From an uncultured Alphaproteobacteria bacterium (GTDB lineage: Bacteria; Pseudomonadota; Alphaproteobacteria; UBA6615), in contig CALSNJ010000006.1 in the NCBI GenBank assembly GCA_943787745.1, positions 1 through 64,000 of the forward strand: a DNA stretch of 64,000 nt. Direction: 5' to 3'. The position numbers and the translations under genes were made by a program. Numbering within the stretch: position 1 is the stretch's first letter; every line of letters begins with the position of its first letter. Of the stretch, positions 19,347-28,165 are shown piece after piece. Below the pieces are notes generated by a model. The model did not search any database and was not told where the DNA came from. It worked only from the letters and a program-made list of their open reading frames with translations.

Positions 19347-20258
19347 ATGGGACCAGACAGCGCGCCACCGCCTGCCGAAGAATTACTTGCCAAAGCCGGA
19401 GTTCTGGCTGAGGCCCTGCCCTATATGCGGCAGTTCAACGGTCAGCGATTCGTCATCAAATATGGCGGACACGCCATGGGTGACACCAATCTTGCCAGTG
19501 CCTTCGCACGAGATATCGTCCTGCTGAAACAGGTCGGCATTGAACCCATTATTGTGCATGGCGGAGGCCCCCAAATCGGGGCCATGCTCGAGCGCCTCAA
19601 GATCAAGAGCGAGTTCGTCGACGGATTGCGCGTAACAGACGCAGAAACCGTAGAAATCGTCGAAATGGTGCTGTCGGGCTCGATCAACAAGCAGATTGTT
19701 TCCGCAATCAATGCCGCGGGCGGCAGAGCGGTGGGCCTGTCAGGAAAGGACGGCAACCTCATGTCGGTCCGCAAGCTGCGGCGCACCCATCGAGAAACGG
19801 ATTCCAACATCGAGAAAATTCTCGATCTCGGCTTTGTTGGCGACCCCTCGCATGTCGATCCAGATCTGCTCGACAGCCTGACCAAAGCGGACATCATTCC
19901 CGTGATCGCCCCCATCGGGATCGGTGAGGATGGAGCAACCTATAACGTCAACGCCGATACCGCCGCTGGCGCGATTGCCTCTGCGGTGGGTGCTGCCCGT
20001 TTGCTGATGCTGACTGACGTTACCGGGGTCCTCGACAAAGACGGTGAGCTGATCGCGGATATGGGTGTCGATCAGGCGCGGCGCCTGATTGGTGATGAAA
20101 CAATCAACGGCGGCATGATCCCCAAGGTCGAGACCTGTATCGACGCCGTTGAAAACGATGTGGATGCGGCTGTCATCATGGATGGTCGTGCCGCACATTC
20201 TCTGCTGATCGAAATTTTCACAGAGCACGGCCTTGGCACAGCGATCTGGGCAGACTAA
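19347..20258 (+). CDS. argB: Acetylglutamate kinase
   Basis: 303 residues. It phosphorylates N-acetylglutamate in arginine synthesis. Motifs: [12 protein letters not shown] near residue 35, [28 protein letters not shown], the [31 protein letters not shown] block, and [16 protein letters not shown] near the C-terminus. The N-terminal helix ([15 protein letters not shown]) is of the arginine-sensitive hexameric type, so feedback inhibition is likely. It ends 9 bases before the convergent gene at 20268. Confidence 0.97.
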
Positions 20259-20267
20259 CGCGGCTTG

Positions 20268-21431
20268 TCAGCTTGCCTGACGCAGATGCGTGCCACCGGG
20301 TTGGCGCATGTCATAGAGAATCGAAAGCGTATCGACCATCTCGCTGAAATGCTCATACCGCAGACGCTTGCCATGACGTGACATCATCTTGGTCCACACA
20401 TCAAGCGCATGAATATTGGCACTCAGGCATGTGGCCAGATTGGTGTAGTCATCATCGGCATGAAAGAGAAACTCCTTGAAGGCGCGCGGCTGGTTCAGAT
20501 CAATGAAGTTGCGGTAGCTTTGCTCATAGGTGTTCAGAACCTGTTTGATACTGCGGTAGGTATCACGCACCTTGTCACGCAGTCCCCCCAAAGAATACTC
20601 CACACGATCGCGATCTTCAGGAAGCAGGCGCGCCCAGTCAATCGGAATTGCTGACTTGTCATCCCCCAACCATGCAAAGAACTTCTTCATCCGCGGCAGA
20701 TGGTCGTCAAACTGCACCTGATAGTAACAAATTTCCTTCCACGCAAAAAATAACTCCGGTGCCCGCTCGGGTGGAATCTCCATACTCCGAACGAAATCCT
20801 CGATCCCTTCAATATCTCTGGCTTCCCAGATTTTTGTCAGAAAACGGCTTACATGCTGCTCAATCTTTTCGGCGGGCGCACTGCCGCCATCGGTGTACGC
20901 GCGGCGCACAAGGGTCCGGATTTTGGTTCGAATCGGCAAACGAATCCGCTTCCAATCATCCTCACTGATCATGAAATAGTAGGGATGAACCCGGTCATCA
21001 AGGTCGAGCTGTTCCGACTTGCTGCGCAGTAGAAACGGATCGAGCGTTGGCAGTGAGTAAATCATCTCGAGAATTTCGAGATCCATCACATAGTCGACCT
21101 GACTCTCTTCACTTTTAGAGTCTGCGCCTGTCTTGGCCTGGAGCACCCTGTTGAAGGACGGGTCATCGAACAGGATGGAGTCACCCCCCTCATGGACGTT
21201 GTCCAGATTGTAAGGGAAGTACAACAACGTCTGAACGGTGGAGACCATGTTGTATTGGCCGCTATTGCGCTCCATCAACTTGAAGAACAGGGTCTTGTTC
21301 AACGTCTTGTTCCGGAACAACTTGCCCACGGGGTCATCAGCCGGAATCCTCTGGCCGATCTCGAACACGTTGAACGCGGTCGAACGACCGGCGTTGATCA
21401 CTTTAGAGAGTTCCATGCGGTCCATGGGCAT
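20268..21431 (-). CDS. Uncharacterised 387-residue cytoplasmic protein in a c-di-GMP operon
   Basis: I do not recognise a family. The protein is largely helical with many charged residues and no signal peptide or membrane span. Notable stretches are NKTLNKTLFFKLMERN near residue 43, a Trp- and Tyr-rich central part (PELFFAWKEICYYQVQFDDHLPRMKKFFAWL in two blocks near 229-258), and FLFHADDDYTNLATCLSANIHALDVW near the end. No PilZ RxxxR/DxSxxG motif is seen. It is the last gene of the EAL-GGDEF-DUF2336 operon, 17 bases after the DUF2336 stop, so a role with that signalling set is inferred. Confidence 0.7.
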   Translation of the reverse strand: MPMDRMELSKVINAGRSTAFNVFEIGQRIPADDPVGKLFRNKTLNKTLFFKLMERNSGQYNMVSTVQTLLYFPYNLDNVHEGGDSILFDDPSFNRVLQAKTGADSKSEESQVDYVMDLEILEMIYSLPTLDPFLLRSKSEQLDLDDRVHPYYFMISEDDWKRIRLPIRTKIRTLVRRAYTDGGSAPAEKIEQHVSRFLTKIWEARDIEGIEDFVRSMEIPPERAPELFFAWKEICYYQVQFDDHLPRMKKFFAWLGDDKSAIPIDWARLLPEDRDRVEYSLGGLRDKVRDTYRSIKQVLNTYEQSYRNFIDLNQPRAFKEFLFHADDDYTNLATCLSANIHALDVWTKMMSRHGKRLRYEHFSEMVDTLSILYDMRQPGGTHLRQAS

Positions 21432-21448
21432 GGCGTCATTCCTTCCGT

Positions 21449-22864
21449 TTAACTGCCATCGGTCATGCCGGCAATAAACTCAAGCTGCCAGGTCATTTCC
21501 TCGGGAGAGATAGGGTAGCCATCCGATGCAGTGGCGCGCAGAACGCCACTTGGGGGAATTTTGGCCAGGTTCATTTGCAGGCGGGTCGCCAACCGCATGG
21601 ACAGACCTGCTTTCCACGCCAACGCCACCAACGCCTTAGCGTTCTGCAGAGAAGCCGCTTTGCGCACCACATCCTCATGCACACCGGCAAGGGATGCCGT
21701 CGCGATGATGACGAACTCGGTCTCACCATCGTTCAGCGCTTCGGAGACATGCTTTTCCTTCAAGGTGCCCTTGGCGATCAATTTGCGCGCCCGCTTGGTT
21801 GCGCGCGTTTCCTTTACGGGCGCTTTGGCTTCCTTGCTGACCCAATCTGGATCAACGGGTCGATCGCCCTCTTCTTCGACTTTGGCTTTTGCCTTCGAGC
21901 TTGCCCATTGTGGATCTTCCAGAGACATCTCCTTGCCCCCGGCAGCGGATTGTCCGGACCAGAGGTCAGCTATATCCGACAATTCTCCGCCATCGAGACG
22001 CCGCTTGATGACCTCGTCGATAGACGCAAGTGCGTCACTGTCCAGATCCGTTCTCTTCTTGAGTTCAGCCAAAAGAGGCCCGGCCACAATTTCGGCGATC
22101 CTGCGGGATGCATTCATCTTGAGGTTGGGCCGCTTCACCAGCGGTCCATGCCATCCTGGTTGTCCCGGCGCTTGGTCGACAATACGGTCCAGAGTTTCTT
22201 CGCGGATCTGCGCGCTTGCATTGCCCAACAATTCAGCCACGGCTTCGATATCGCCCGTGTCGACAATCGCATCCGCGACATCCTGACCCAGCGCGACACG
22301 CCGGGAAATAGCCATAAGCGCGCCCTGGACCGTTTCACTGTTAAGCACGCCAATCAAAAACTCATCGCTGAGAACCGGAGAATTTTCCAGCACCGGACCG
22401 CTGACAGAGATTTCCTTGTCGAGCGCAAGCGTTTCAACAATATGGCGTGGCGCCCCCGCACTATCTTTGAAAACTTCTGACAGTATTTGGCGCACGCGCA
22501 CAAGCTGGTCGCCCGCCAGAACTTCCAGAGCCTGCATGGTGACCTGATAGACATTTCCCCGATCACCTGCATTCATATCCAGCGAGGACACCGCGATCTT
22601 GCCGGCGACGTCAGACCGAACACGATCGTCATCATCCTGCGCCAGCATCAAATCTGCATGTCGGGGTGTCGCGTCGTTGCGGGCGATGTAGCGACGCACA
22701 CCGGGATCCGGGTCGCCCGCAAGATAATAGAGAATCTCTGGTCGCACATCGCCGCGTCCAGCTAGATCACAACGCGCGCCGTGATCGCCTTCTCGCGCCA
22801 TGCGTTTCTGATCTTCATAAGAGATCGATTCGGAATCGACAGATTCAATCTGTGCGTTGGTCAT
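21449..22864 (-). CDS. DUF2336 domain protein (HEAT-like)
   Basis: About 471 residues. The N-terminal half has repeated helical pairs resembling HEAT repeats: RCDLAGRGDVRPEILYYLAGDPDPGVRRYIARN and DDRVRSDVAGKIAVSSLD. The C-terminus carries the DUF2336 ending ALAWKAGLSMRLATRLQ and ISPEEMTWQLEF. Residues ~300-370 are charged and probably disordered. The protein is typical of alphaproteobacteria and of unknown function. The start is uncertain: ATG at 22864 overlaps the diguanylate cyclase stop by 20 bases, with 22879 and a TTG at 22891 as alternatives. Position in the operon suggests a scaffold or partner for c-di-GMP signalling. Confidence 0.75.
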   Translation of the reverse strand: MTNAQIESVDSESISYEDQKRMAREGDHGARCDLAGRGDVRPEILYYLAGDPDPGVRRYIARNDATPRHADLMLAQDDDDRVRSDVAGKIAVSSLDMNAGDRGNVYQVTMQALEVLAGDQLVRVRQILSEVFKDSAGAPRHIVETLALDKEISVSGPVLENSPVLSDEFLIGVLNSETVQGALMAISRRVALGQDVADAIVDTGDIEAVAELLGNASAQIREETLDRIVDQAPGQPGWHGPLVKRPNLKMNASRRIAEIVAGPLLAELKKRTDLDSDALASIDEVIKRRLDGGELSDIADLWSGQSAAGGKEMSLEDPQWASSKAKAKVEEEGDRPVDPDWVSKEAKAPVKETRATKRARKLIAKGTLKEKHVSEALNDGETEFVIIATASLAGVHEDVVRKAASLQNAKALVALAWKAGLSMRLATRLQMNLAKIPPSGVLRATASDGYPISPEEMTWQLEFIAGMTDGS

Positions 22865-24650
22865 CGTTCTGGTCTTCATCGCGAGTTTCAACGGAAATTT
22901 CTATTGGTCGTCCGGCAAGCCGGTCCGGACCGTAAACATAACTCGGTGCAACCACCCAGCCATTCTTGCCCGCACGCTTGGCGGCGTACATTGCCTCATC
23001 GCCCCTGATAAGGAGTTCGCGGAGTGTCTCTCCCGAGCCAACCTCGAACTCTGCCAGCCCGATCGAGGCGCCTAATGGGTTCATGGGGTCAGAGAATTGC
23101 TCACCAAGCAGACCAATGGCTTCGACAACTTGCCCCGCCCGATCAACGGCAGGATTGACCCCGACAGCATCCAGCCAAATCGCGAACTCATCACCCCCCA
23201 GTCGGGACAACAGGTCATACTTCCGATTGTGCTGCCTGAGCAGTTCGGAAATTTCGCACAACACTTTGTCACCAACATCGTGGCCGCTGGTGTCATTAAT
23301 CTGTTTGAAATTGTCGAGATCAACAAACAGAAGCACCCCATTCGATGCGGTACGATCCGCACGATCCAGTGCCTCATCGAGCCTTTCGTGAAACGCGCGG
23401 CGATTCATCAAGCCTGTCAGGGCATCTGTGGTTGAAAGGCGCTCGAGCTCTTTCTGGTCCGCAATCTGTCGCATTCCGATTGCAAGCTGTCCGGCGACCG
23501 CTTCCAACATTGCATGTTCATCATCATTCCAAGCGCGCTGCGACTTCTCGCGCAACAACAAGACCGTCCCATTGACCGCGCCGTGATACCAGGTTGCACG
23601 ACCCAGTAATCCGCGCCCACCGACAGTCTCTTCCGAAACGCCCTGAGTCTTTGCGAGACTTTCTGCCAGCGCAGACACATCGACATCTTCGGGCCAGTCA
23701 CCATAGCTTGCGGACAGCTGCCAACCCTCATCATGGGAAAAACTCAACACTGCCGATGCCGCAGATGTGGCACGCCCCAGCATGGAAGCAGCCGATTCCA
23801 GCATGGCTCTCGGCCGGGCTTCCTCACGAATCTGGTTTACGACATAGGCGACAACCTGTTCGCGCACCTTGGCCTGTGCCAATTCACTATCCCGCAAACG
23901 CTCATGTGTAACGTCACGACACAAACCGCGTGCGCCGCGCCAACGCCCCTCCTGATCGACGACAGGAACAGCAGAGGCAAGCAGACAGGTCTCCTGTCCG
24001 TCAGCGTTTCGCAACCAGATTTGCGTGTGTCCCATCGCTGTTCGGGTATGGAAGGGAAGGTCAGGATCATCGACATCGACATCGCCCTCGACCAGAAAAT
24101 CTCGCGGATGGCGACCGATCATGTCCTCCGGCGAATACCCGAGCGCTCCATGCGGGGACACAAAGACGAATTTTCCACTTAGATCAGTCTCAAAGGCGAA
24201 ATCACTCGAGATCGTCACGAGGTCGCGATAACGCTGACGGGAATCGAAAAGGGCCTGACGAATATTAATGTCGTAGGTCTGATCACGAACCAGCACGATC
24301 ACTTTACCATTTTCCGACGGCAAAGCCGTGCACTCGAACCAGCGGGCAACATCGTCGAGGACGACCTCAATGCGGTCACATACGCCGCCCCTTGCCTGAC
24401 GTGCGAGCGCCACGACGCCCTGAAGCGACGCCCCCGGCATACCCGACGCCGCACGCACGAGTTGTGTCCCGAGTTCGTTCGCAGCCGCGACCTCACCGTC
24501 TGCGCCAAACTCAATCACCGCGCCCGGCCAGCTTAAGAGCGCATGAACCGCGCCACCGAACTCCGGCGCGGGCAAAGAGCTCCACAAACTGGCAACACGT
24601 TGCGCATCAGCCATATTGTCCTGGTCTATGGATCGCAGCATCGTATTCAT
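22845..24650 (-). CDS. Diguanylate cyclase with PAS and GAF domains
   Basis: 601 residues. Order: a degenerate PAS at ~30-120, a PAS at ~140-255 (YRDLVTISSDFAFETDLSGK), a GAF-like domain at ~275-395, then a GGDEF domain. The catalytic loop GGDEF is at 485-489 and intact. The inhibitory I-site RKYD (RxxD) sits at 476-479, exactly five residues before it, so product inhibition is predicted. VDLDNFKQINDTSGH carries the metal and substrate residues. It makes c-di-GMP from GTP, in the cytoplasm. ATG at 24650 overlaps the EAL gene stop by 4 bases. Confidence 0.92.
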   Translation of the reverse strand: MNTMLRSIDQDNMADAQRVASLWSSLPAPEFGGAVHALLSWPGAVIEFGADGEVAAANELGTQLVRAASGMPGASLQGVVALARQARGGVCDRIEVVLDDVARWFECTALPSENGKVIVLVRDQTYDINIRQALFDSRQRYRDLVTISSDFAFETDLSGKFVFVSPHGALGYSPEDMIGRHPRDFLVEGDVDVDDPDLPFHTRTAMGHTQIWLRNADGQETCLLASAVPVVDQEGRWRGARGLCRDVTHERLRDSELAQAKVREQVVAYVVNQIREEARPRAMLESAASMLGRATSAASAVLSFSHDEGWQLSASYGDWPEDVDVSALAESLAKTQGVSEETVGGRGLLGRATWYHGAVNGTVLLLREKSQRAWNDDEHAMLEAVAGQLAIGMRQIADQKELERLSTTDALTGLMNRRAFHERLDEALDRADRTASNGVLLFVDLDNFKQINDTSGHDVGDKVLCEISELLRQHNRKYDLLSRLGGDEFAIWLDAVGVNPAVDRAGQVVEAIGLLGEQFSDPMNPLGASIGLAEFEVGSGETLRELLIRGDEAMYAAKRAGKNGWVVAPSYVYGPDRLAGRPIEISVETRDEDQNDDQRTD

Positions 24651-26347
24651 GCCGCCGTCTTTTCACGTGGGAACGACTTGGGGCGCGGGCTCTCAAAGGC
24701 CGAAATCAGTTTGCTTGGGCGGCCAAACAGATACCCCTGACCATAATCGATGCCACATTCGCGCACGAGCTCGGCCGCTTCCTCATCTTCGATCATCTCG
24801 GCAACGGTTTTGATATCAAGCTCACGGCACATGCTGGCCATCGCCTTGAGAAGCGCGCGATGTCTTCGATTCTTGATGGCATCGATCACATAGGCACCAT
24901 CGATTTTCACCACATCAACATCCAGCGCACTCAAATACTGAAAGGCTGCAGCACCGGCCCCAAAATCATCGAGACAAACGATATGGCCTGCCTGACGTAG
25001 TGTTTGAATGATACGGTTTGCTTCCTCCAGATCATGCAACTTTGCCGATTCCGTCACCTCGAACAGAATATGTTCTCTGGCATCTGAAAATTCATCCAGA
25101 AGCGCCATCAGGTCTTTCACGAAACGCGGCGTGCTGAGAGAACGCCCCGACAGATTGACCGCCGTCATGTAGCGATAGCCCTGCCCATTGGTAGACTCGA
25201 GCCAATTCAGAACCTTCCGGCACATCGCCAGATCAAATTCACAGATGATCCCCACTTCTTCAGCAAAGGTGATGAATTCAAAAGGGGAAGCCTCAAAATT
25301 CTCATGATCGAAACGCACCAGCGCCTCGAAATGGTGAGGGCGCCGGGATTGCATGTCGCAGATCGGCTGGAAGGCTACATCGAATGCCCCACGCCGGATC
25401 ATCTCCACAAACCTGTTGCGCCGCTCCATCGTCTCGGCGGCCATTGACGTGAATCCCTCCGAGAGATCGCGCACCGTGAATCCACCGACAGTCTCGTCGC
25501 AGAACCGGTTGATCGTATAGACCAGCGCCTGGGCTGTATCCTCTTCGGACATAAGGCCGGCTTCCACTTCGACGGTCGCACTACCGACGGAAACCCCCTG
25601 CCCTTCGGGATCCATTTCCTTCGCAAATTTCTCGATTTGTGCCGACAGATTTTCGACATTGAGATCAACATCGTGCACGAGGCCGAAACGGTTTTCGTCG
25701 ATCTGCCCGGCAAGATCACCATCCACGGAGCTTGCACGGAACAGCGACCCCATGGTCGCCGACAGTTCGGTTTGCGCCTGATCCGTCAGACGCTCGCGCA
25801 ACTCATCATAGTCTCCCAACTCGATCATGGTGAGGCGACGGTCTTCCCCGGTGTCTTCAGAAGACGACAGAGCGCGGGTCGCCGCCTGAGCAAAGGACGT
25901 CCTGTCATAAACCTCCATCCCCTCGACACGCACGGAGTTCTCGTCAGAAAAATCCGATCGTGCGGCTTTCACCCGGAAGGAAAGATAGGTGTGCCCTCCC
26001 AGGTCAGCCATATGAAAACCACTGGCGGTGAGCAGCATCGGCGGTCCACCCGGAGAGACAAGCGTGATCGGAGCATCATCAATCCGGGTCCCGGATCGTG
26101 CGTCACGCAATAGTCGATCGAGGTTTCGCAGATCACTTTCGTGAATCAACTCATTGATGCGCACGCCCTGCAGTTCTTTGGGGCTGCGTCCGGTGAAAAC
26201 ATTGGTCGCGCCGGCCGCGAACGTGATCACGCCCGCAGGATCCAGTTCGACCAGCAAATCCGCATTGCAAAATGCCAGCGCGACAAATCGATCGCGCTCG
26301 GTCTTCAGATTCTCGGGACTCTGCCGATCACCTGCTGCTAGATTCAT
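24647..26347 (-). CDS. c-di-GMP phosphodiesterase: PAS, degenerate GGDEF, EAL
   Basis: About 566 residues from ATG 26347, which has AGGA 4 bases upstream; 26437 is an alternative. An N-terminal PAS is followed by a degenerate GGDEF with DENRF where GGDEF should be (about residue 218), then an EAL domain. EAL residues are present: FEALVRF (341-343), VNLSG, FEVTES, the LDDFGAG loop, VKIDG, AEMIED and YGQGYLFG. The full metal and catalytic set is therefore visible, and hydrolysis of c-di-GMP to pGpG is predicted. The degenerate GGDEF may bind GTP as an allosteric site. It is the first gene of the operon with the cyclase. Confidence 0.9.
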   Translation of the reverse strand: MNLAAGDRQSPENLKTERDRFVALAFCNADLLVELDPAGVITFAAGATNVFTGRSPKELQGVRINELIHESDLRNLDRLLRDARSGTRIDDAPITLVSPGGPPMLLTASGFHMADLGGHTYLSFRVKAARSDFSDENSVRVEGMEVYDRTSFAQAATRALSSSEDTGEDRRLTMIELGDYDELRERLTDQAQTELSATMGSLFRASSVDGDLAGQIDENRFGLVHDVDLNVENLSAQIEKFAKEMDPEGQGVSVGSATVEVEAGLMSEEDTAQALVYTINRFCDETVGGFTVRDLSEGFTSMAAETMERRNRFVEMIRRGAFDVAFQPICDMQSRRPHHFEALVRFDHENFEASPFEFITFAEEVGIICEFDLAMCRKVLNWLESTNGQGYRYMTAVNLSGRSLSTPRFVKDLMALLDEFSDAREHILFEVTESAKLHDLEEANRIIQTLRQAGHIVCLDDFGAGAAAFQYLSALDVDVVKIDGAYVIDAIKNRRHRALLKAMASMCRELDIKTVAEMIEDEEAAELVRECGIDYGQGYLFGRPSKLISAFESPRPKSFPREKTAA

Positions 26348-26533
26348 ACTGTCCTGGGCTTGACCCAACGCAACGGCTCCACATTTGAGTTTGCTGGGAC
26401 ACGAGATTCCCGACATGCGATGCACAAAGCACCGCAACGTCGAATAATAATGAGTGGGCGGTTAAAGAAGTCTTAGTAATGGGCCGCGCTCATTGGCCCT
26501 TAAAACGCTGTATTTATGCGGATTTTTATTGAT

Positions 26534-27220
26534 ATGAAACAAATCGAACAGCTGCGCGAGACCGAAACCTGGGTCTTCGATCTCGACAACACGCTCTATC
26601 CGGCCTCATGCGGACTGATGGCCGAAGTCTCTTCACGCATGACGCTGTTTGTCGCCGAGACTTTGGCCCTTGAGCCTGAAAAGGCCCTCATTGAACAAAA
26701 ACGCATGTTCCGTGAACATGGAACAACCTTGCGCGGCCTGATGAACGACCATGACGTGGACCCGGTTCACTTCATGGATTACGTCCATTCTGTCGATTAT
26801 TCGGTTGTCGGCCCCAAACCGCGCCTCGACGCCGCGCTCGATGCACTTCCCGGTCGCAAGGTGGTGTTCACCAATGCTTCAACAGCCCACGCAGAAACGG
26901 TGCTGAAAAATCTGGGCATTGATGATCACTTTACGGGAATTTTCGACGTCGCAGCGGCGGACTACGTCCCCAAGCCGCATCCCAAACCCTATGCCATGAT
27001 TGCCGCGCAGCATGACTTCGATCCTGCACATGCCGTGATGTTGGAGGATATCGGGCCAAATCTGCGCCCGGCCGCCGAGATGGGCATGACAACCGTCTGG
27101 GTTCGCTACAACCCGGAAAACGACCCATACTGGGCCGTTCCCGACGCTGAAGCCGATTACATCCACCATGAAACCGACGATCTGGTGATCTGGCTCGAAT
27201 CTGTCCTCGCGGCAAGCTGA
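26534..27220 (+). CDS. HAD-family pyrimidine 5'-nucleotidase-like phosphatase
   Basis: 228 residues. HAD motifs: I is FDLDNTLYP, II is VVFTNAS, III is the Lys in KPHPKPY, IV is LEDIGPNL. This is the SDT1/pyrimidine 5'-nucleotidase subgroup of HAD-IA, which strips phosphate from UMP, CMP or related small phosphates. The start is either 26534 or 26516, with no strong ribosome-binding site for either. In related genomes this gene often follows argB; here the c-di-GMP operon separates the two. It precedes dapD by 99 bases. Confidence 0.85.
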   Translation: MKQIEQLRETETWVFDLDNTLYPASCGLMAEVSSRMTLFVAETLALEPEKALIEQKRMFREHGTTLRGLMNDHDVDPVHFMDYVHSVDYSVVGPKPRLDAALDALPGRKVVFTNASTAHAETVLKNLGIDDHFTGIFDVAAADYVPKPHPKPYAMIAAQHDFDPAHAVMLEDIGPNLRPAAEMGMTTVWVRYNPENDPYWAVPDAEADYIHHETDDLVIWLESVLAAS

Positions 27221-27319
27221 GAAAAGCCGTAAACCGGGCATTCACGAACGTTGACAGGTGGGACCACGCCCGGCCATCTTCGCGCGCTGCCAAACCAAGA
27301 CCTGCTACAGGAATACGAC

Positions 27320-28165
27320 ATGAGCTCGAGTGATCTGCAATCCGCCATCGAAACTGCCTGGGACAACCGGGAATCGCTTTCCCCCGACACCAAAGGAGCA
27401 GATCGCGATGCCGTTGAAACTGCCCTTGCACAGCTCGACAGCGGCGCACGACGTGTCGCAGAGAAAATCGATGGAGACTGGGTTGTCAACGAATGGCTCA
27501 AGAAAGCGGTTCTGCTCTCGTTTCGCCTGAACGATATGTCCCTGATTCCCGGTGGACCGGGTCAGGACACACCATGGTGGGACAAGGTTCCGTCAAAATT
27601 CGACGGCTGGAAATCTGCCGAATTCGAATCGGCGGGATTTCGCGCTGTTCCCAACGCCATTGTTCGTCATTCCGCCTATATCGCGCCCGGCGTCGTGTTG
27701 ATGCCGAGTTTCGTCAATCTTGGTGCCTATGTCGCCAGCGGCACAATGGTCGACACCTGGGCCACGGTCGGAAGTTGTGCCCAGATCGGCGAGAACGTGC
27801 ATCTTTCCGGCGGCGCAGGCATTGGCGGCGTTCTGGAACCGCTACAGGCCAATCCGGTCATCATTGAGGACAATTGCTTCATCGGCGCACGATCCGAAGT
27901 CGCCGAGGGCGTGATCGTGGAAGAAGGCGCTGTGCTTTCCATGGGTGTCTATCTGGGTGCATCGACAAAGATCATAGATCGTGCGACCGGCAATGTTCAT
28001 GTCGGCCGCGTGCCCTCCTATTCCGTGGTTGTTCCGGGCTCCCTGCCCGGCAAGCCCCTGCCAGACGGCACACCGGGGCCGAGCCTCTATTGTGCTGTCA
28101 TCGTGAAACGCGTGGACGAACAGACCCGCGCCAAGACCTCCATCAACGAACTGCTGCGGGACTAG
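27320..28165 (+). CDS. dapD: Tetrahydrodipicolinate N-succinyltransferase
   Basis: 281 residues, the standard length. It succinylates tetrahydrodipicolinate on the lysine/diaminopimelate route. Left-handed beta-helix hexapeptide repeats run from about residue 110 to 230 ([33 protein letters not shown] and [17 protein letters not shown] in succession). The N-terminal SLIPGGPG segment is also typical. ATG at 27320 has AGGA eight bases upstream; an earlier start adds a poor leader. dapE follows 10 bases later. Confidence 0.96.

Follow-up and report, generated by a model that had tools for sequence, protein, structure and literature searches.

A predicted c-di-GMP synthase and hydrolase locus with a DUF2336 gene beside argB: an old alphaproteobacterial gene group with a local addition

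Why are a predicted diguanylate cyclase and a predicted phosphodiesterase for cyclic dimeric GMP (c-di-GMP) encoded together with two uncharacterised proteins next to argB and dapD? The locus lies in the first 64,000 nucleotides of contig CALSNJ010000006.1 (the window) from an uncultured Alphaproteobacteria bacterium, whose genome (G000) comprises 3.27 Mb in 7 contigs with a completeness of 97.9%. Four genes on the minus strand follow each other in the order EAL, GGDEF, DUF2336 and U387 between argB and the gene for a pyrimidine 5'-nucleotidase; U387 is our working name for a 387-residue protein without a Pfam family. EAL-GGDEF-DUF2336 is an old locus common to many Alphaproteobacteria, and U387 alone is a local addition. 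We read the locus as an old alphaproteobacterial c-di-GMP switch in which the DUF2336 protein would be the dedicated adaptor or scaffold and U387 an accessory, and we assign this reading a probability of about 0.58. The features are, in window coordinates:

24647..26347, minus strand: predicted EAL c-di-GMP phosphodiesterase, PAS-like, degenerate GGDEF and EAL regions, 566 residues from ATG 26347 (Pfam EAL)
22845..24650, minus strand: predicted diguanylate cyclase, PAS, GAF-like and GGDEF regions, with RxxD feedback site (Pfam GGDEF, PAS)
21449..22864, minus strand: DUF2336 protein, 471 residues, HEAT-like N-terminal region (PF10098)
20268..21431, minus strand: U387, fourth gene, specific to the lineage; its family has no Pfam entry (no family match)
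19347..20258, plus strand: argB, conserved left flank (AA_kinase)
26516..27220, plus strand: pyrimidine 5'-nucleotidase of the HAD type, conserved right flank (TIGR01993, 183.8 bits, cut-off 142.9)
27251..28165, plus strand: dapD, conserved right flank (THDPS_N_2 and hexapeptide repeats)

The four genes are tightly packed. The EAL and GGDEF genes overlap by 4 nucleotides, and the GGDEF and DUF2336 genes by 20 nucleotides if ATG 22864 is the DUF2336 start, which is favoured by comparison with relatives. A further 17 nucleotides separate the DUF2336 gene from the U387 gene, which converges tail-to-tail with argB across a gap of 9 nucleotides. On the other side, dapD and then dapE follow the nucleotidase gene. 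For the EAL gene the most likely start is ATG 26347, as given in a sequence-only reading of this DNA by an earlier reader, and the mechanical open reading frame opens at TTG 26437. The same reading had described four packed minus-strand genes coding for a synthase, a hydrolase and two uncharacterised partners, and this description holds.

The EAL protein matches Pfam EAL with 205.3 bits. Its N-terminus gives a PAS-like match of 19.9 bits, below the cut-off of 22.6, and the region ahead of the EAL domain aligns to the GGDEF part of FimX-type proteins without carrying a GGDEF motif. The EAL signature consists of the residues E, N, E, DD, K, E and Q. The window protein has all of them; across 18 aligned sequences including the window, every position is present in each, apart from the K, which is found in 17 and falls into an alignment gap in the remaining row. 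The name-giving tripeptide reads EVL in two of these sequences and EGL in one. The cyclase matches Pfam GGDEF with 139 bits, with PAS above and GAF below cut-off. All 30 aligned sequences, that of the window among them, carry its active-site motif, and 27 of the 30 carry the RxxD feedback site. The catalytic motifs of both enzymes are intact, and cyclase and phosphodiesterase activities would be expected from them.

Conservation of the locus across the class

A profile built from the DUF2336 protein of the operon matches in 193 of 385 genomes of the class (E <= 0.001). We inspected 60 of the loci, one per genome and from 45 other families, taken down the ranked list (E 6e-130 to 4e-52); this set is not random and is biased to close relatives. 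Flanking genes were sought within about 7 kb, and some loci stop near a contig end.

A GGDEF relative lies directly upstream of the DUF2336 gene in 53 of the 60 loci, and the lasting link between these two genes that the sequence-only reading implied is borne out. The GGDEF relatives are 30-43% identical to the cyclase of the window, mostly with the sensory part included, and -54 to 144 nucleotides separate the aligned portions of the GGDEF and DUF2336 genes. The place is conserved as well: the right flank is found as the nucleotidase gene in 45 loci and as dapD in 44, and argB forms the left flank in 36. One flank or the other (argB and/or nucleotidase/dapD) is seen in 49 loci from 34 families, both in 34 loci from 26 families. 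The complete EAL-GGDEF-DUF2336 trio lies between both flanks in 9 loci from 8 families, and at L171, L177, L180 and L181 the relatives of the EAL protein are 40-46% identical across nearly the full length. U387 is found in none of the 60 loci.

In eight loci the GGDEF-DUF2336 pair is present without either flank being found (L164, L167, L170, L175, L207, L224, L232 and L237; L167 and L207 are near contig ends). Seven loci show no upstream GGDEF gene: L227, L229, L166, L236, L239, L241 and L243. At L227 the contig stops 58 bases upstream of the DUF2336 match. L229 (G209) holds a DUF2336-GGDEF-DUF2336 tandem between argB and the nucleotidase gene, a local duplication that places the cyclase on the opposite side of DUF2336. 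The remaining five are genuine exceptions. Two loci of family f79, L212 and L236, have a GGDEF gene that adjoins argB at its end distant from DUF2336, at L212 between engB and argB.

The site within the order and the origin of the fourth gene

The order was sampled with 24 genomes of a single family and 10 genera. All four genes lie between argB and the nucleotidase gene in six of them: the window, L023 (G004), L024 (G021), L025 (G020), L026 (G022) and L075 (G023). An order of genes repeated in six genomes is therefore not a chance arrangement of open reading frames. Shorter versions occur at the site in G002 (GGDEF-DUF2336-U387), in G010 (GGDEF-DUF2336) and in G001, where GGDEF-DUF2336 is accompanied by a U387 without its middle (residues 1-86 and 345-376 in one frame of 128 residues). 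We further find EAL-GGDEF-DUF2336 on a short contig in G003 (L079), GGDEF-DUF2336 adjoining argB in G009 and a GGDEF gene adjoining a DUF2336 fragment in G011. In G006 the two ends of the locus are on separate contigs (L083 and L084) and DUF2336 is not seen; G008, G011, G012 and G013 gave no view of the argB-nucleotidase site.

Eight genomes (G005, G007 and G014-G019) have an empty site, in which argB adjoins the nucleotidase gene. The gap of G007 contains an EAL piece matching window residues 319-360 with 81% identity and an N-terminal EAL piece with 85% identity over 87 residues to the G004 protein; the gap of G019 contains a single EAL piece (residues 18-83, 59%). These remnants show that the genes were lost in at least these two genomes. 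The other six (G005 and G014-G018) show no scar except a weak U387 tail of 12 residues in G005. Candidate EAL remnants in G018 (L087) and G017 (L086) were rejected: the matches, at residues 254-353 and 255-272 of a 900-residue open reading frame, fall in the part of this frame that overlaps the nucleotidase gene in antisense. Neither GGDEF nor EAL is matched anywhere in the genomes G005 and G014-G018 (2.1 to 2.9 Mb, 82-100% complete), whose whole c-di-GMP system appears to have been lost. G008 (3.5 Mb, 96% complete) also has no GGDEF or EAL match, so enzyme loss occurs without a small genome. Near the decayed operon of G007, at L081 8942-12544, dapE, a gene of 192 residues and an MFS gene are in pieces, by decay or assembly errors. 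We could not confirm a placement in Caulobacterales or Maricaulales; the close relatives with names are four metagenome-assembled genomes, of which two are labelled Rhodospirillaceae, one Alphaproteobacteria and one Proteobacteria bacterium.

U387 has a different history. It matches no Pfam or NCBIfam family, and among 28 family members scanned against Pfam no family is matched by more than one member, while conserved blocks run throughout their alignment. Searches against the PDB gave E >= 0.55 with the single sequence and E >= 0.16 with the profile, and PHROGs returned a single weak match (E 0.01) of unknown function. The structure model, built from 5 close sequences, has a mean predicted local distance difference test score (pLDDT) of 46.9. 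Relatives occur in 38 of the 385 class genomes, with up to 5 matches in some. Outside the order, 26 of the 34 matching genomes hold U387 at a locus without operon genes within about 1.5 kb. For U387, the possibility that the partners occur mostly apart from the enzymes is thus realised; for DUF2336, with its 53 loci beside a cyclase, it is not. Within the order U387 is present in 11 of 24 genomes, each of which shows at least part of the operon, and an operon-type DUF2336 is found without U387 in three, G009 and, as fragments, G013 and G011.

The U387 proteins of the order form two clades, the operon copy and a copy beside gltX, a glyoxalase gene, a TetR gene and nitrile hydratase genes. In the tree, the operon and nitrile hydratase-locus copies group together with 99/97 support inside the family. 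Those from G127 and G398, likewise neighbours of nitrile hydratase genes, come next, with lower support (93/84) and on a long branch. Most likely, then, a duplication within this bacterial family gave rise to the operon copy, which joined a pre-existing operon. A DUF2336-type match is present in 37 of the 38 genomes with U387 and in 156 of the 347 other class genomes, a count uncorrected for relatedness that is a hint, and no more, of a functional link at the level of the class.

Among the neighbours of U387 over 22 loci, none is common to more than 4, leaving out reading frames that mostly shadow U387; those shared by up to 4 loci are nitrile hydratase genes (f1 and f105), a gene from one family (f57) and a hybrid histidine kinase of the PAS-GAF type. 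Nitrile hydratase genes adjoin U387 relatives in two families of the class (L185, L189; the copy of G000 is at L095:9192-10463 on contig C2), and an M23 peptidase gene and a bactofilin gene come after this locus in G000. L127 (G042:C354) holds a tandem pair of U387 genes, 7 nucleotides apart, in a genome of 1.6 Mb. Among plasmid records, U387 relatives of 27% identity occur in two, both from Azospirillum argentinense, and partial DUF2336 matches in 22, of which 21 are from Azospirillum and one from Tistrella.

The DUF2336 protein and the readings of the locus

The DUF2336 protein passes PF10098 with 153.9 bits (cut-off 34.6). It also matches NF052659, the model of SpbR from Caulobacter crescentus, with 105.3 bits over residues 82-291 of the 480-residue open reading frame, and does not reach the equivalog cut-off of 400. 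With the DUF2336 superfamily common to both, the protein is by its profile matches a distant relative of SpbR, and it differs in score (105 of 400 bits), in length (471 residues against a model of 358 positions) and in being encoded beside a cyclase. One study (PMC12700997) counts SpbR among 26 regulators of dimorphic development and describes it, together with one other, as lacking an association with c-di-GMP.

G000 itself has an SpbR-like paralog away from the operon (L105:9729-10955, contig C1; 193.7 bits, cut-off 400). It lies near an IspA-type septation gene, an SRP54-type GTPase gene and a radical-SAM gene, and none of its five scanned neighbours is a c-di-GMP gene. A branch with 100/99 support splits the operon DUF2336 group from the SpbR-like paralogs of the order. 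Only one of the 12 paralogs is beside a GGDEF relative, and this one is oppositely oriented (flanks mostly 1-1.5 kb).

In the mechanism that we propose, a PAS/GAF-controlled diguanylate cyclase would make c-di-GMP and, through its RxxD site, would be subject to inhibition by this product, and the EAL enzyme, with its PAS-like sensor, would remove it. The DUF2336 protein would bind the cyclase and perhaps the hydrolase, anchor them to a target or place and in this way keep the signal local. U387 would be an accessory specific to this bacterial family that joined the operon by duplication. The locality of the signal, the adaptor role of DUF2336 and any role of U387 are the conjectural parts of this scheme.

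HEAT-like solenoids usually bind proteins, and the structure prediction of the DUF2336 protein hints at such a fold in its N-terminal region: in one model, the best of the five, residues 11-170 have pLDDT values of 79-92. The best PDB matches found with Foldseek are of the PP2A A-subunit type (E 5.5e-4, TM-score only about 0.26). Realignment places a designed HEAT-like alphaRep first (4jw2_B, Z 12.3, root-mean-square deviation 4.1 over 174 residues, 13% identity), and since unrelated helical repeats can reach Z values below about 13, this match may indicate a common arrangement only. The similarity to the PP2A A-subunit and alphaRep proteins is one of helical-repeat arrangement and says nothing on function. 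The N-terminal region, and this region alone, may thus form a HEAT-like helical solenoid.

Several observations weigh against the switch with a DUF2336 adaptor. Only one of the five DUF2336 models is fair (mean 63.9; the other four 47-52), and the Pfam DUF2336 domain itself is largely poorly modelled. L166, L236 and L239 hold DUF2336 at the site with no cyclase gene upstream; at L241 and L243 both the cyclase and the flanks are missing. Beyond the GGDEF gene, on its upstream side, an EAL relative is seen in only 12 of the 60 class loci, and the EAL gene is missing at the site in G001, G002 and G010, three genomes from two other genera, so the hydrolase is optional. No EAL remnants were found in these three (best E 0.14-0.62); parsimony suggests a loss. 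Passive inheritance, too, can explain a conserved gene order.

This last point leads to the explanation that the genes stay together only since the chromosome region is rarely rearranged, with DUF2336 having no direct link to c-di-GMP. The argB and dap flanks are indeed conserved as well, and the three loci that keep DUF2336 at the site without an upstream GGDEF gene fit such an explanation. It does not account for the GGDEF-DUF2336 pair being intact in the eight loci where neither flank was found, nor for the close spacing of the aligned portions of these two genes. A co-directed GGDEF neighbour is moreover seen in 0 of the 12 SpbR-like paralogs of the order, as far as the DNA was seen, and we regard linkage by position alone as improbable. 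The sequence-only reading proposed instead that a signalling cassette was inserted recently between argB and the dap genes. The orientation opposite to both flanks would agree with this, as would argB adjoining the nucleotidase gene in eight genomes of the order. Against it, many genomes of the order have the genes at this very site, two of the eight empty sites (G007 and G019) still carry EAL remnants, and DUF2336, mostly with a cyclase, is beside at least one flank gene in 34 of 45 families beyond the order (49 of the 60 loci). We therefore give insertion next to no credence.

The stronger competitor is a receptor role: instead of serving as an adaptor, DUF2336, perhaps together with U387, would bind c-di-GMP from the neighbouring enzyme and relay the signal. 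Both are proteins of unknown function encoded beside the enzymes, and G000, with its 4 GGDEF and 3 EAL domains and no PilZ or MshEN match, needs another receptor. We noticed no c-di-GMP binding motif in DUF2336 or U387, no dedicated test having been run; a TipF-like EAL protein elsewhere in the genome is a possible receptor, and HEAT-like solenoids are more often protein binders. A receptor role is possible and, on balance, doubtful. More speculative still, for a lineage in which PilZ, MshEN and FliG matches are lacking, is a new c-di-GMP output in which the DUF2336 protein would bind both cyclase and nucleotide and U387 would relay the signal to a target at the cell pole or envelope. If this were true, SpbR-like polarity proteins would join a wider family of c-di-GMP adaptors, though SpbR is counted as unassociated with c-di-GMP.

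Output in the host and comparison with known systems

The c-di-GMP proteins of G000 are the two enzymes of the operon, a GGDEF protein of 361 residues, another of 265 residues, a GGDEF-EAL protein and the TipF-like EAL protein (L247:2474-3739; 319 bits, cut-off 600). No PilZ, MshEN or FliG_C match was found in this genome, with one marker each and about 98% completeness, and the output therefore seems not to be a usual one. The TipF-like protein persists in G000 though FliG was not found. A FliG_C match is missing in 17 of the 24 genomes of the order, G000 included; several of these carry the operon, and flagellar control was rejected as a general role. G000 carries a DUF2497 protein; PopZ belongs to this family. 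Polarity or envelope control through other receptors seems the more likely output.

In Escherichia coli, DgcM-PdeR-MlrA is a local module of diguanylate cyclase, phosphodiesterase and partner, in which a transcription factor serves as partner and the phosphodiesterase acts as trigger. The locus described here is similar in that the synthase and hydrolase genes are kept with the gene of a proposed dedicated partner. In contrast to the E. coli module, the partner is a helical DUF2336 protein and the phosphodiesterase gene is optional.

The open literature that we searched, which leaves out most subscription journals, yielded no description of the locus, no papers on DUF2336 and nothing on acetylglutamate kinase together with GGDEF and EAL. 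The locus is also not described in the accessible portions of the HmrABCX paper (PMC11481889) and of a survey of Azospirillum GGDEF and EAL proteins (PMC5845226).

Every part of the locus but U387 belongs to a named family, the locus is common in the class, and the pairing of cyclase and DUF2336 offers a clear lead that can be tested. Found in 53 of 60 loci across a set of 45 families, usually at one fixed place, this pairing argues well for a protein partnership that has been conserved. G000, with c-di-GMP enzymes and no PilZ, MshEN or FliG match, is a case that needs another output. With the pairing, DUF2336 proteins, SpbR relatives included, gain a testable link to c-di-GMP.

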